Virus record (IMG/VR): IMGVR_UViG_3300045738_002455
Span: 1 to 44,396 of that record
Strand: one strand, 5' to 3'
Length of the DNA stretch: 44,396 bases
DNA from: a virus
Below the pieces are notes generated by a model that searched no databases, had not been told where the DNA came from, and worked only from the letters and a program-made list of their open reading frames with translations. Positions 1 to 42,839 of the stretch are shown here, piece after piece. The stretch's first letter is position 1. Every line of letters begins with the position of its first letter. The translations under genes were made by a program, and so were the position numbers.

Positions 1-45
1 ATGTTGGAGATTGCTATTTTTGGTAGTAAACAGAATGGAAATATA

Positions 46-531
46 ATGGCAAAGAAAAAAAAATCATCAAGCAGTAATACAATCGCACTGAATAAAAAAG
101 CGCGTCACAACTATAACTTAACCGATAAATATGAAGCGGGTATGAGTTTACAAGGTTGGGAAATAAAAAGTATACGCAGTGGTAAAGCTAACATCTCAGA
201 CTGCTACGTCTTTGTTAAAGACCGTGAGGCATTTTTAGTAGGCGCAGAAATTATGCCGCTAAATGCAGCCTCAAGCCATGTGGTGTGTGATCCTAACCGT
301 GCTCGAAAACTGTTATTAAACCGTCGTGAACTTGACCAACTCATGTTTGCCGTTGACCGAGATGGCTATTCACTCATTGCAACCGCAATGTATTGGAAGG
401 CATGTTGGGTAAAACTTGAGTTTTATCTTGGTAAAGGTAAGAAAGATCACGACAAGCGTGCCGATATTAAAGATCGTGAATGGGCGGTTGATAAAGGTCG
501 TTTAATGAAAAATAAAAACTTAGATAGATAG
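46..531 (+). CDS. smpB: SsrA-binding protein SmpB
   Basis: SmpB binds the tRNA-like part of tmRNA and brings it to stalled ribosomes for trans-translation. The 161-residue product has the family length and its hallmarks: NKKARHNY near the start, GWEIKSIR at about residue 36, and the basic C-terminal tail (DIKDREW, then KGRLMKNKN) that mimics a codon-anticodon in the decoding site. An upstream in-frame ATG at position 1 exists, but the ATG at 46 begins the canonical lysine-rich MAKKKK and follows GGAAATATA, so I use it. The gene is host chromosome; the tmRNA gene that it serves lies 93 bases downstream and is the prophage insertion target. Identification is very secure. Confidence 0.97.
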
Positions 532-624: not shown

Positions 625-974
625 GGGGCGGATCTAGGATTCGACAAGATTCACGAAACCCAAGGTGCATGCCGAGGGGCGGTTGGCCTCGTAAAAAGCC
701 GCAAAACTATAATTGCAAACGACGAAACGTTCGCACTAGCCGCTTAGGCTAGCCATCGCCTCAAAAATTCTCCTATTGTTTAGAGGATCGATGGTCACCC
801 CAAATAGGATAGCGAGGGAAGCACGCTTAAGGCTGAACCGCGAAATAGTATTAAGCTCACCATGACGAAGCCTGTCGATTGGCGTCTAATTGGTTAAACA
901 AATAATCGACTAAGCATGTAGTACCGAGGATGTAGGTTTTTTGGACGGGGGTTCGATTCCCCCCCGCTCCACCA
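625..974 (+). ncRNA. ssrA: tmRNA (ssrA), 3' end rebuilt by prophage attL
   Basis: The tmRNA rescues stalled ribosomes with SmpB, acting first as an alanyl-tRNA and then as an mRNA for a degradation tag. The 5' end GGGGCGG pairs with CCGCTCC before the terminal CCA; the conserved segments GGTGCATGCCGAGGGGCGG and GCATGTAGTACCGAGGATGT are present. The tag frame at 715-744 reads ANDETFALAA and stops with TAG at 745-747. The T-arm (GGGGG, TTCGATT, CCCCC) lies at 947-963. The last 28 bases are identical to the sequence at the far end of the prophage, so the acceptor stem is supplied by phage DNA while remaining functional. Identification is very secure. Confidence 0.97.
947..974 (+). other. attL: attL core (28 bp, in the tmRNA T-arm and acceptor stem)
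   Basis: The 28 bases GGGGGTTCGATT through CTCCACCA are repeated exactly at 43775-43802. The two flanks differ immediately outside this block, so it is the attachment core. It covers the T-stem-loop, the 3' acceptor strand and CCA, the usual target of tRNA/tmRNA-specific tyrosine recombinases. Confidence 0.93.
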
Positions 975-5577: not shown

Positions 5578-8500
5578 TTACGGTTTTTGTTGGCCGTTAT
5601 GGGTGATAATTCTATTTTTTGCGTTAACACCGGCAGCGAACGAGCCGTTACCTACGCTGATGTGCATTACGGGTTGTTCACCAATAATTTCTGCGCGTGT
5701 TACTTTTTCCCATACGAGTTGGTTGCTATCGCCTTTTAGCGTGGCGAGTTCGTCAACGTTAACGGTTAACTCTTTAGGGGTGATTATTACGTGGTTTTCA
5801 AGCTCTAGCGGGGTGCTTTCGCTGATGCGTACAATAGCGCCTGAGCTAGTTTGTATTTCGTAAATCACTTGTTTTTGCTCGATTAAGCGTGATTGTTTAA
5901 TCTGGCCTTTTACTGCATTTTCACCTTGGAACCACAAATCAATTTCATTATTTGCAAGAGCTTTTTGTGTTTGTAAATCTTTGCCTTGTAAATCTGGGGT
6001 TAACCACATGTCGAGTGTTATACAATCGTATACTGGTGGGGTAGTGCTGCCGCCGCCGTTAGCGGGTGTTGTAATGCTTGATACAAAAATACGGTGATTG
6101 CCTGCAGCTATGGTTTGTAAATTGGTTGTAGCGTTATACGTTACAGTGCCGCCTGTGTAAGTTGGGTCGTCGTAATACACGTAGTATTTAGTGCTAAAGG
6201 CTAATCCTGAGATTGAACCTGCATTAAGCGTTAACAATCCAAAACCATACTGGCGCGTGTGGCTAGCAATGTTTATTTTTGCGGTACTGCCGTTATCTAT
6301 AGCTGACAGCGGGTTAACATTTAATGCAGTACCAGCTCCGGCTGATACTAAGTTGGGCATGAACTGTTGGTCTTGCACGCGGTATAGTCTGTAGCCGCTG
6401 TAGTATGCTTGTCCTGTGGTATTATAGTTCATCAATAAACGTACACGCACATAACAAACCTCTTGGCCGTCTGAGCCGTTATACGGTGTATGGGTCTCAG
6501 GCAAGGTATGTGAATACACGTATTTTGTCCACGTATTTGAGACTACTGTGTTGATTAAACCCCCATAAACCGTACCGTTGTTGCTACCAAGTGGTTTTTT
6601 ATTGCGGTCGAAACGTTCAATACCCATGTATGCTTTAGCTGTATTGCCCGTTTGTTTGGCCCACATTTCCCAATGTAGAGTTTCGCCTTTTTTAACCGGG
6701 ATAAAATCACTTAAAGAGTCATAATTTAGCATTGTTGTTCGTGAGAAGCCTATGGCAAAAGGCGAACCAGCAGGCATTACATCGGGCGCTATACCGTTAA
6801 TATTGAATAGCGTTTGGTTAGATTGAGTAAATTCGCTGTATTGCTGTGCGGCTAATTGTGCGGCATCAGCCTTAGCTTGAGCATCAGCAATGGCGCGTGC
6901 TTCTTCTGCTGTTACTATATTGTCGGCATAGGCTTCTGCAGTTACGCGTGCTAGCTCTGCATCGGCTTTAGCGGCTATATCAGCAGCTAAAATGGCTTCG
7001 GCTTTAGCAGCATCTGCACGAGCTTGCGCGTCGATTTCAGCAGCAGCTATAGCTGCAGATTGTGCGGCATCAGCCTTAGCTTGAGCATCAGCAATGGCAC
7101 GGGCTTCTTCTGCTGTTACTATGTTGTCGGCGTAAGCTTCTGCAGTTACGCGTGCTAGTTCTGCATCGGCTTTAGCGGCGGCATCGGCAGCTGCTATGGC
7201 TACATCGGCGGCTGCATCAGCTTTGCTTTGCGCTTCTGTGGCATTAATTAATGAAATACCAGCAGCGTCGCGCAAGGTACTAACATTGACAGGGGTTATT
7301 GAGTTTTTTATCTCAGCGTTTAATGTGCCATTAGTGGTGCTGTCATACGCAATAAATTTGAATTGATCAGTTGGTGAGTAATTCCCCGCAGGTGACGTTG
7401 ACGACAATGTTCTTTGCCCCCAAAACTCCCACCGGGCATCTTGTACGTTATTGCCTGACTTTAGTGCTAGCCACTCTAATCCGTTATAAACAACTTTTAC
7501 TACCTGCCAATTCCACGATACATCAGATTTAGAGAGTGCTGTATATGTGGTGTTGTAAGCTGTCTTTGCTGCTATATCTATACGCTCAGACCTGTTGGTT
7601 CCTGACGCACCGCCCCTTCGAAATGTTAACGTACCAAAAACCTCAGACTCTCCCCAACCGGTAGCACCATTTGCATACGGTATCAGCAAAATTACGGCAG
7701 ACGTATAATGAGCATTAAAACTAAAAGTTTCTCTAGATACTGATTGGCCATAGTCAGTTACATCACTCACCAACAACCAATCAGCACCATTATAATTTTC
7801 AGACGTTGTTCTGTCTGTTTGGCAACGTTTAATACCGCTGCCGGTATCCCATAAGTCGCCCACGTCGTAAGGGGTAACAGGTTGAGCTACAAAAACACGG
7901 CGCTTACCGTCAGCAGTATCTTGAGCTTTTGCAGCATTTGCTAATGCAAGGGTTACATCACTGTCGCTAACTTTTTGCCATTCGTAAGTCGTACCATTAA
8001 TTAAAAATCGATAGGCATAGCCGGTATTGTTGTCGTAATACAAATCACCTAAATGGGTGTTTTTGTCGTCACCCGTGGCCCAGTCACTTGCGGGGCTGTT
8101 TGCTAACGTTGGCGCACCATCGTAAAACCAGGTGGTAATCGCTTTGTCGATTTGTGACTGTAATACCGCTTTTTCTTGGGCGTACAAGTCTTCGGTAACA
8201 AAACCGGTTATTTCAGCGTTGCTAATGCGGGGGTCTAAAAATAAAGCCTCTTTTCCGGTTATTACATCCCAGCCAACAGTAGTTTTTTCTAACGTAACTG
8301 TGATATTGGTATTTTGACTTAGAAATAAACTGTTCCCTGCGTAAAGTTTGAAGGTATGTTGCCCTCCCTCTAACCCATAAACGTCAAAAAAGTTTTCGGT
8401 TAAATCCTCTGATTTTACTATGTTTTGCTCTGCGTTTAATACGATCACACGATAAAAGGTGACGGCCGCATTATTTGCATCATCCCAAACCAACTTTCCT

Positions 8501-9963: not shown

Positions 9964-10523
9964 TATTTTCTGCCCCACTTAATGTCGTTGTCAGCATAGG
10001 CTGCGTAATCAAAGCCAGTGTCATTTGGAAAATATCGTTGTTGGCTTGCGGGGGTTGTTCTTCTGCCTGCTTTTTGGGACCAGTTAGCAAAATCGCTTGA
10101 TATTTTTTGCGTTATTGTCGCTTTCCCTTGTGATGGGTTATCTTCAACTTTTGCTGCGCCATCGATGATCATTCTTTGCATTACAATAACGTCACCAGCA
10201 ACCGTGTAGTCATCATTTAAAATGGCGAGTGATATATTAACTTTTCGACTGTTTTGAGACTGCCCACGCAAAATAGCAACAAAACTAGGATCGGTAGCAT
10301 CAAAAACAATGCTTGTACTGCCCACTCTAATATCAAGCGTTTGCGATAAGCTACCCATTTGCAAAAACTGACCATTCGCCAAATAAGTGTTGCCGTTATA
10401 GACAATATTGAATGGTGTATTGGTTAAGTAAACAGGAAAAGGCGTAAACTCCAAGCTGATCAGGGTTGCCCTTTTGTGATCTACTTTTAATCTGGCCAAA
10501 GTGTCAGGGTTGATTATTTTCAA
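9963..10523 (-). CDS. Tail tip-associated protein (gpL/DUF2163-like position)
   Basis: The 186-residue product sits directly before J, where lambda has L/K/I-type tip proteins. Motifs such as ATLISLEFTPFPVYLTN, NTYLANGQFLQMG, RVGSTSIVFDATDP and the C-terminal YFPNDTGFDYAAYADNDIKWGRK are typical of the short baseplate-hub proteins of siphophages, in which the tail is often followed by J. The start is a TTG at 10523 after AAGAGAATACC. It overlaps J by TAATG. An identification as hub protein is likely, exact equivalence to a lambda protein is not claimed. Confidence 0.72.
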   Translation of the reverse strand: MKIINPDTLARLKVDHKRATLISLEFTPFPVYLTNTPFNIVYNGNTYLANGQFLQMGSLSQTLDIRVGSTSIVFDATDPSFVAILRGQSQNSRKVNISLAILNDDYTVAGDVIVMQRMIIDGAAKVEDNPSQGKATITQKISSDFANWSQKAGRRTTPASQQRYFPNDTGFDYAAYADNDIKWGRK

Positions 10524-28189: not shown

Positions 28190-29440
28190 CTATGCAGCAT
28201 CATTACTAGCCTTACTATTAATAACCAATCCGCTCGGGGTTGACTCTGGGTTGAGAATAAAGCAATCGCTTTTATTACTCTTTAACCACTCACAATGTTT
28301 TTCCAAAGCCGCTAAACGTAAATCTTCAACCGTAGTATCTAAGTAAGCTTCAGCAACTTTACCTAAACTGTGGTTAAGCATTCTTTCAGCAACCATAAAA
28401 TCAACTTTCTGATTAGCCCACGATATTCGTGCACACTTTCGTAAATCGTGCGAGGCCCATTCTCCACCACTAAACTCATGTATTAAAGAAGATGCTTCAT
28501 TAGCACTAATACACTCTTTATTATTAACATGAGGAAACAAAAACTTACCTTTGTAACCCTTGCTCAACTGGTATTTTTTCCATGCATTAAGTAGCTGAAC
28601 AACATCACCAGGTAAATGAATAGTGTGGGAATTATGTGTTTTGGTGCACTCTTCAGGTATTACCCAAACTGCATTAGCACCCACTCCCATATGAGACCAT
28701 TTAGCGGTTCTAGTTTCACCAATACGATTACCAAGTGCCAACATCAGCATTACAATAACTTTCGTCATAACCTTCTGATCTTGCAATTCATCAAGCAACG
28801 CAGCAACCATAAACGGTTGTAATTGAGTGCCTTTGTTTCTATACATAAAATCACCAAAGTCAGTAATTTTAATGCCTGCTAGTGGGTTGTTTTCAATTAA
28901 ATGTTGCTTAGCGGCATCAGAGAACGCAGCCTTTAACGTCCTAAATAATTTCGCTACGGTACTTTTTGCTAAATGCTTTTGCAAAGGCCAAATAATTTTT
29001 CTATCTAAAAAAGCATGTGTTAATTCATCAAACGAACAACCATTTAATCTTGGTAGCAAATGGCATTTAATCGCGCTTTTAATATCTTTTTTACGCTGTT
29101 CGCTTAACTCGCTTTCATCTTCTTTACGCTCTCCATACCAAACAATCAAATCGCCAACGTGGTTAAAACAATCTTTAATAGCAGCGGCTTCTTGGTGGTT
29201 TCTTATCTTGCTGATCAAATTACTAAAGCCATTGCGAATATCTCGGGTTTTAGTCTCTGGCCACTCACCAACCTTGTGCCATTTGTTACGAAAAAGAATA
29301 CGCCAAACACCAAAAGCTCTATTCTTTTTGTAGCGCAACTGCAACAACGGGTTTTGTTCATCACGTAAAACTGACACACCAGGTAAAGCAACATGACTAG
29401 ATATCGACTTATCAGTGATCAACACTCGAACTAAGCTCAT
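28190..29440 (-). CDS. Internal tyrosine recombinase
   Basis: The 416-residue protein is a second tyrosine recombinase, embedded in the early operon rather than at a prophage end. Conserved catalytic segments are visible: GNRIGETRTAKW (Arg I), CTKTHNSHTIHLP (Lys), ASHDLRKCARISWA (His-x-x-Arg), LNHSLGK (His) and AEAYLDT (Tyr). The N-terminal part has an arm-binding-like region and a core-binding helical region (FNHVGDLIVWYGERK, then TVAKLFRTLKAAFSDA). It seems intact. It may be the former phage integrase, a resolvase or a DNA-inverting enzyme; I see no att-like repeats flanking it. Confidence 0.88.
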   Translation of the reverse strand: MSLVRVLITDKSISSHVALPGVSVLRDEQNPLLQLRYKKNRAFGVWRILFRNKWHKVGEWPETKTRDIRNGFSNLISKIRNHQEAAAIKDCFNHVGDLIVWYGERKEDESELSEQRKKDIKSAIKCHLLPRLNGCSFDELTHAFLDRKIIWPLQKHLAKSTVAKLFRTLKAAFSDAAKQHLIENNPLAGIKITDFGDFMYRNKGTQLQPFMVAALLDELQDQKVMTKVIVMLMLALGNRIGETRTAKWSHMGVGANAVWVIPEECTKTHNSHTIHLPGDVVQLLNAWKKYQLSKGYKGKFLFPHVNNKECISANEASSLIHEFSGGEWASHDLRKCARISWANQKVDFMVAERMLNHSLGKVAEAYLDTTVEDLRLAALEKHCEWLKSNKSDCFILNPESTPSGLVINSKASNDAA

Positions 29441-41490: not shown

Positions 41491-41688
41491 ATGTTATCAG
41501 TAGTGCCAATATCAAAATACTGTGAACTATCAGGCGAAAAAGTTCGGACTGTCCAAGCCCGTATAGAGCGTGGCGTGTGGCAAGAAGGCAAGCATGTTCA
41601 CAAAGTTAAAAATGTTAAAGAACGATTCGTTGATCTGGTGGAGATTGAGAAATGGGTAAGAAATGGTGGAGGCTTCCGAGCGGCATAA
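41491..41688 (+). CDS. xis: Excisionase
   Basis: The 65-residue protein is a small winged-helix recombination directionality factor: PISKYCELSGEKVRTVQARIERGVWQEGKHVHKVKNVKERFVDLVEIEKWV. Xis bends attachment-site DNA to favour excision. It overlaps the integrase start by 37 bases. Confidence 0.82.
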   Translation: MLSVVPISKYCELSGEKVRTVQARIERGVWQEGKHVHKVKNVKERFVDLVEIEKWVRNGGGFRAA

Positions 41689-42839
41689 CTATTCGTGACA
41701 ATGCCAAGAGTCAATCAATACGAGTTGATTTTTTGTATAAAGGTGTTCGGTGTCGTGAGACATTGGGCCTTGATGTTACGAAAGCCAATATTACCTGGGC
41801 CGGTAACTTGGTCGGTGAAATTCGCAACAATATAGAACGTGACACTTTTCACTATGCTGAGTACTTCCCGAACTCGCCAAAGCTTAAAGTCTTTGGCGCA
41901 GCAACAAGCAAAGCAACAGTACTATCTTATATAGAAGAACTAATTCACCAGGGCGAAACGGTCCGTAAACTTTCCCACACGACAACCGAAGGTTATAACA
42001 AGGGCAAAAATGCTCTTAAACCTCTTCATAAACTTTTAGTTACTAAGATCACGCCAAAAGAAATAGCCAATTGGATCAAAGAGCGAAACAAGTCAGTATC
42101 ACCGAAAACCATTACTAATCATAAAAGCGTATTGGATCTTGCCTTAGATCAGGCCGTGACAGACCAAGTAATACAATTCAATCCTTCACGCCAAGTTAAC
42201 ACTAATCAATACATCACTAAAAAAATCGTTAATGCGCGTAATGAAGATGATGATGATATCGACGTTTTTACACCCGATGAATTAAACGCTATTTACCAAC
42301 AGTGCCGACCGGCAGAATTAAACATTGTGCAATTTTGGGTTAACACTGGTGTCCGTTCTGCCGAATGGCCAGCGTTAAAATGGGTAGATGTAGACTTTGT
42401 ACATGAGCAAGTGCATGTAGTTGAATCATACTCGCAAGGCATCACTAAGCCCACCAAGACTAAAAACAAAAGATTTATACCATTAAATGTTGAAGCATTG
42501 TCAGCGCTTAAGCGACAAAAAGAATTAACGTTTTTACATAGTGAGTATGTTTTTTTAAATGATCAGGGTAAACAGTGGGAGCATGAAAGTTTTCGCAAAC
42601 ATCGTTGGCAAGCAAGAATATTAAAAGCGGCTGGTGTTCGTTATCGTTACCCTTATCAATTGCGTCACACTTTCGCTACTAAGCATATTTCACAAGAAGT
42701 GCATTTATGGAAAATTGCTAATTGGATGGGCCATAAAAATACGGAAATGATCTATCGTCATTATGGTAGTTTCATCGAAGCATACGAAAAGCCGAAGCCT
42801 ACAATAAATAAATCAAAATTAATTAATGTTAAAACTTGA
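41652..42839 (+). CDS. int: Tyrosine integrase of the ssrA-type (DUF3596 arm-binding)
   Basis: The 395-residue recombinase lies next to attR and Xis and most likely catalyses insertion into ssrA. The N-terminus (PSGITIRDNAKSQSIRVDFLYKGVRCRETLGL) is a DUF3596-like arm-binding domain. Catalytic residues: Arg235 (TGVRSAEW), Lys in KNKRFIPL, Arg338 (PYQLRHTFAT; Tyr335 replaces the first His, as common in this group), His361 (MGHKN) and Tyr371 (YRHYGSF). The TGGCACCGAT repeats are its likely arm sites. Confidence 0.93.
   Translation: MGKKWWRLPSGITIRDNAKSQSIRVDFLYKGVRCRETLGLDVTKANITWAGNLVGEIRNNIERDTFHYAEYFPNSPKLKVFGAATSKATVLSYIEELIHQGETVRKLSHTTTEGYNKGKNALKPLHKLLVTKITPKEIANWIKERNKSVSPKTITNHKSVLDLALDQAVTDQVIQFNPSRQVNTNQYITKKIVNARNEDDDDIDVFTPDELNAIYQQCRPAELNIVQFWVNTGVRSAEWPALKWVDVDFVHEQVHVVESYSQGITKPTKTKNKRFIPLNVEALSALKRQKELTFLHSEYVFLNDQGKQWEHESFRKHRWQARILKAAGVRYRYPYQLRHTFATKHISQEVHLWKIANWMGHKNTEMIYRHYGSFIEAYEKPKPTINKSKLINVKT

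Follow-up and report, generated by a model that had tools for sequence, protein, structure and literature searches.

Results

Genomic setting and layout of the tail-tip protein

The window, by which we mean the whole viral DNA stretch of 44,396 nucleotides analysed here, contains a siphovirus-type prophage with PHROG-recognised genes for the tape measure, distal tail, portal, protease, major head and large terminase proteins. At the left edge (1–974), smpB and a tmRNA gene adjoin the prophage tail genes, and the tmRNA gene is probably the insertion site of the prophage. Two integrase-family genes are present, at 28190–29440 (minus strand) and 41652–42839 (plus strand), both matching phrog_1 (3.8e-37 and 3e-44).

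The tail-tip protein J belongs to this prophage. It matches phrog_37728 (6.5e-70), the tail family phrog_21973 (1.5e-52) and the central tail fiber J family phrog_31 (3e-20). The features of the left edge and of J are as follows.

1–531, plus strand: smpB
625–974, plus strand: tmRNA, with the tag ANDETFALAA
5578–9978, minus strand: tail-tip (central fibre J) protein; the GTG start at 9978 gives 1466 aa (open reading frame and PHROG matches)
6061–6468, minus strand: domain region directly upstream of the linker, with homologs that carry a Hint domain (L008, L048, L049) and homologs that lack one (L050, L051)
6025–6060, minus strand: linker NGGGSTTPPVYD preceding Cys1319 (AlphaFold pLDDT and alignments)
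5596–6024, minus strand: predicted Hint (Hedgehog/intein-like) domain, Cys1319 to Asn1461, 143 aa (PDB profile matches; AlphaFold and Foldseek)
6022–6024, minus strand: Cys1319, domain position 1, candidate nucleophile of an acyl shift (invariant in the alignment)
5800–5841, minus strand: block B-like stretch GAIVRISESTPLEL, with Ser1386 at B:7 (HMMER alignments to the CDC21, gp41-1 and DnaB inteins)
5812–5814, minus strand: codon of Thr1389, at the position of intein His B:10 (same alignments)
5596–5601, minus strand: His1460-Asn1461, equivalent to the last two residues of inteins (kept in every complete member)
5581–5595, minus strand: C-terminal tail GQQKP after Asn1461, including Lys1465 (tails of relatives, 5–11 aa)

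The C-terminus of J reads ...VYD-CITLDMWL...IYEIQTSSGAIVRISESTPLEL...AAGVNAKNRIITHN-GQQKP-stop, so that its final 148 residues comprise Cys1319 to Asn1461 followed by GQQKP. The sequence features on which the original prediction was based are all present; its Cys1314 and Asn1456 are our Cys1319 and Asn1461, since its numbering starts at an ATG five codons after the GTG used here. The linker NGGGSTTPPVYD scored low in the AlphaFold model (pLDDT about 45, model residues 1–10) and is for this reason likely flexible; a poly-Gly linker occupies the same place in many relatives. Further upstream, at about residues 930–1060, an Ala-rich stretch, AKADAELARVTAEAYADNIVTAEEARAIADAQAKADAAQ, occurs twice in almost the same form and likely makes a coiled coil.

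Assignment to the Hint superfamily

Searched as a single sequence, the end of J matched no Pfam family, no PHROG Hint family and no PDB intein. Against phages, tblastn returned seven records, all distant, the best of which aligned over query residues 27–169, i.e., from the Cys to the Asn, with 32% identity (E 4e-10). Since unrelated phage proteins align over nearly exactly this Cys-Asn interval, the domain is more than a chance resemblance.

Profiles of the family, built from ten members and then from 17, were compared with 177,635 PDB sequences. Every match was a Hint protein (8 of 8 with the ten-member profile and 11 of 11 with the 17-member profile), with E-values of 3.9e-5 for the CDC21 intein, 3e-4 for gp41-1, 3.6e-4 for NpuDnaB and 0.18–0.29 for Hedgehog. 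AlphaFold models were obtained for the J domain and for a member only about 24% identical to it (L023); their pLDDT values were 85.4 and 86.9, and their pTM values 0.83 and 0.84. Among the 50 top Foldseek matches in the PDB listed for each model, only inteins, Hedgehog and BIL (bacterial intein-like) domains were found, among the last that of Clostridium thermocellum. In a viral structure library, the lengths of the best matches fit the LucasX, DLP6 and XacN1 members. Matches to a terminase small subunit, DUF3757 and the like were weak and scattered and were dropped. None of the 17 members matched a curated Hint model in Pfam, NCBIfam or PHROG, such a match being an aid to annotation and not a defining trait of the Hint fold. 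The agreement of the profile matches with the predicted folds of two divergent members supports the assignment of the end of J to the Hint (Hedgehog/intein) superfamily, as had been predicted from the sequence.

Family members and their carriers

We recovered 19 distinct complete members of the family, each located at the very end of its protein; none interrupts a protein. The phages recovered by tblastn were Stenotrophomonas phage DLP6, the Xanthomonas jumbo phages LucasX, XacN1 and PhiXhv-12/15/16, and Erwinia Ep032, and further members came from IMG/VR scans and a Microbulbifer plasmid record. The complete members thus derive from DLP6, LucasX, XacN1, PhiXhv-12/Ep032, the Microbulbifer plasmid and uncultivated phages, and the domain is common to siphoviral prophages and jumbo myophages. 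Identity to the J domain is mostly about 18–35%, and a poly-Gly linker often precedes the domain. Most carriers are recognisable or likely structural proteins. The carriers include tail-tip proteins resembling J, VlrC of DLP6 (predicted to be structural) and unnamed proteins, some of which adjoin tail or baseplate genes. Scans of species-genome contigs found no relative, and the family is therefore rare in species genomes or was missed there.

Several members have features of their own. A Hint-bearing ORF of DLP6 (492 aa, KU682439.2, 177–1652 of our locus L001) is without annotation in its record. PhiXhv-12 encodes a second, divergent Hint-bearing protein, XYR92711 (13084–14627 of locus L038), which has Thr at +1 and adjoins a 2OG-Fe(II) oxygenase gene, and a separate 139-aa gene, XYR92700 (2111–2530 of the same locus), overlaps the end of a Hint-bearing gene. 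This gene encodes a divergent family copy that lacks Cys1 and His-Asn; Ep032 likewise has such a copy as a separate gene, which in both phages directly follows a normal one.

Relatives of the upstream domain differ at their ends: L050 and L051 stop after a Gly-rich stretch without a Hint domain, whereas L048 and L049 carry one, which indicates that the Hint module is an optional addition. Compared with L008 (1897–6432), J is 22% identical over the first 580 aa and about 90% identical over the remaining ~880 aa; thus, phages exchange the C-terminal part of J together with its Hint domain. Between the two Hint domains, dN is 0.038 and dS 0.43 (dN/dS about 0.09), and the domain is under purifying selection.

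Conserved and missing active-site residues of inteins

Seven columns are invariant in the 17 aligned members: Cys1, block-B Gly, Trp, Gly, Val and the His-Asn pair. The penultimate His and terminal Asn are kept in all complete members, and Cys1 is present in all 17 aligned sequences and in L048 and L049, which were fetched through the upstream domain. Because most members were found through similarity to the domain itself, these two are the only unbiased test of invariance, and Cys1, His-Asn, the block-B Thr and the Lys-containing tail are present in both. That Cys1, His and Asn stay invariant in such dissimilar sequences, together with purifying selection, fits catalysis.

Block B has the pattern Ser/Thr-x-x-Thr, in which HMMER alignments place the Thr opposite intein His B:10 and the Ser/Thr at B:7. 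The Thr is nearly universal, the only exception being the divergent XYR92711. There is no counterpart of the Asp F:4 and His F:13 found in ordinary inteins, both positions being variable in the alignment, although the mapping of block F depends on weak alignments across a variable region. Cys1, the block-B Thr, a W[DE]xV motif (in which the Val varies in a few members), His-Asn, a short Lys-containing tail and a location at the extreme C-terminus characterise the subfamily, and all are found in the J domain. By sequence, the family possesses the nucleophiles for both reactions of intein-type processing and lacks the usual step-1 helpers. Since block-B His, Asp F:4 and His F:13 are all absent, step 1 would have to proceed without them, and activity of the domain cannot be assumed.

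Position −1 is Asp (Asp1318) in J and Gly in 8 of 19 members. At +1, J has Gly, which the original prediction took to argue against ordinary splicing. The argument holds: 18 of 19 members have G, A, L, I, V or N there and so lack a Cys, Ser or Thr, and the remaining one has Thr. The 5–11 residues that follow the domain contain a Lys in all 19 members, mostly near the end (KP, KM, KQI, KEI) and at positions ranging from +2 to +7. With five clusters counted as independent, the chance of a Lys in all tails is 3e-4 if Lys is as frequent as in the domain, and 0.02 if 10% of residues are Lys. Release of a toxin, as in the Hint domains of polymorphic toxins, was ruled out, only 5–11 residues following the domain.

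Discussion

A putative autoprocessing domain

We propose that the Hint domain at the end of J acts like a type-A BIL, with cleavage, and possibly ligation of the tail, during assembly. Once folded, Cys1319 would attack the Asp1318-Cys1319 peptide bond, giving a thioester; Asn1461, helped by His1460, would cyclise and cut the bond before the five-residue tail. Resolution of the thioester by water or an amine would then let the Hint domain leave and define a new C-terminus of J, the product being either J with Asp1318 as its last residue or J ligated to GQQKP via the free amino end of the tail. The purpose might be maturation of tail-tip or adhesin proteins in assembly. We infer the occurrence of the reaction, the bonds broken and this purpose alike.

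The scheme has precedents. BILs, which have no nucleophile at +1, cleave and are able to ligate; those of type A keep His-Asn and combine an N-terminal thioester with cleavage by Asn cyclisation and ligation via the freed amino group (PMC4031507). A few natural inteins without the block-B His compensate for it, and in the Ssp DnaB intein bulky −1 residues can do so, whereas with Gly at −1 loss of this His blocked the acyl shift (PMC6333167). The eight members with Gly at −1 correspond to the blocked case, which, if the analogy holds, counts against autoprocessing. We consider autoprocessing the most likely reading, yet place only about half of our confidence in it, because the step-1 helpers are missing, compensation is known, and position −1 is Asp in J but Gly in eight members. 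The text of the published XacN1 virion proteomics makes no mention of ORF231, and the LucasX, PhiXhv and DLP6 papers contain no relevant processing data.

Simple cleavage does not explain the conservation of the tail Lys, which would not be expected in a mere leaving peptide. The tail is conserved as though it stayed attached, and this would fit a non-catalytic Hint scaffold that remains on J and, at the distal end of the tail tip or adhesin, serves in binding, capping or docking, with Cys and His-Asn retained for structure. The missing step-1 helpers fit such a scaffold, as does the fact that some J-like proteins end without any domain of this kind; moreover, the PhiXhv-12 and Ep032 copies without Cys1 and His-Asn imply that the fold can persist when these residues are lost. 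Structure alone, however, hardly explains the exact invariance of Cys1, His and Asn in divergent members, and we regard the scaffold as somewhat unlikely. The tail Lys would have a direct role if it, or a Lys of a neighbouring subunit, attacked the Cys1 thioester and placed the C-terminus of the fibre covalently on Lys, by which trimers could be cross-linked. In Tetrahymena, the Hint domain of BIL2 couples a ubiquitin-like protein to Lys (PMC8616854), which makes Lys cross-linking a serious, if hypothetical, alternative; the fold matches listed include BIL2 structures (6y75/6tmm), and acyl transfer would be eased by the Gly-rich linkers that precede Cys1 in many members. Against this, the position of the Lys varies, Lys-rich short tails may have other reasons, and the chance estimate shifts with the Lys background assumed; such an isopeptide is, in our judgement, improbable. 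A broader version, in which a rewired Hint domain on tail tips and adhesins acylates a Lys of its own tail or of a neighbouring subunit, or else a host-surface amine, also seems improbable to us; if true, fibres would be cross-linked, or attached to the receptor, by covalent bonds.

A decayed mobile intein, or a functionless chance resemblance, would account for the degenerate active site and the empty single-sequence searches. This explanation is already largely refuted by the low dN/dS relative to L008, by the strictly terminal location and by the profile and fold matches to Hint proteins, and we hold it to be very improbable.

Significance

Known phage inteins interrupt enzymes, for example terminase or polymerase. 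The papers on phiCbK and CBB describe inteins in terminase and ribonucleotide reductase. The Hint domain described here instead regularly occupies the end of structural proteins, and has no curated model in Pfam, PHROG or NCBIfam. Our literature search, limited to open-access papers, found none that deals with a Hint domain in a tail or fibre protein of a phage. While the fold and chemistry are already known, the family, its strict location at the C-terminus of phage structural proteins, its block-B Thr and its Lys tail are not in these three libraries or the papers searched. The sequence and model comparisons suggest that some phages may use intein-type chemistry to trim or join tail-tip proteins. 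If the domain is active, this chemistry joins the means by which phages mature their fibres, and a compact domain may work without a His deemed essential in many inteins.

Comparison with known systems

Like type-A BILs, the phage family combines a Hint fold (Foldseek match to 2lwy of C. thermocellum) with Cys1 and His-Asn, and has no Cys, Ser or Thr at +1 except in one phage member. Unlike them, it has Thr for the block-B His, does not conserve the Asp F:4 and His F:13 positions, and sits on structural proteins with a C-extein of only 5–11 aa. The family therefore resembles type-A BILs but does not fully belong with them, since it has lost the conserved residues that help step 1. With class 1 splicing inteins it shares the position-1 Cys and C-terminal His-Asn, but it lacks the block-B TxxH and, in 18 of 19 members, the +1 Cys/Ser/Thr. 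Closest by profile and fold are the mini-inteins NpuDnaB, gp41-1, Ssp DnaB and CDC21-1, which have Cys1 and His-Asn in common with it; the phage domain differs in being strictly terminal, in not being inserted into a conserved enzyme, and in lacking the block-B His. The Tko CDC21-1 group has naturally lost this His and is still active (PMC6333167), although its members are archaeal CDC21 inteins.

Tetrahymena BUBL BIL2 is also a Hint domain, and its Lys isopeptide product is a precedent; it differs in having its own catalytic His (H69), Zn control, and a place between ubiquitin-like domains. The Hedgehog C-terminal autoprocessing domain, to which the profile matches are weak (1at0, 6tyy), is likewise a C-terminal Hint domain that leaves its protein. 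Hedgehog autoprocessing involves no Asn cyclisation, proceeds by transfer to cholesterol and requires the block-B His. Finally, the Peptidase S74 or intramolecular chaperone ends of phage fibres are terminal domains that remove themselves after assembly; their fold and chemistry are unrelated to those of the Hint domain, and the likeness is one of role only.
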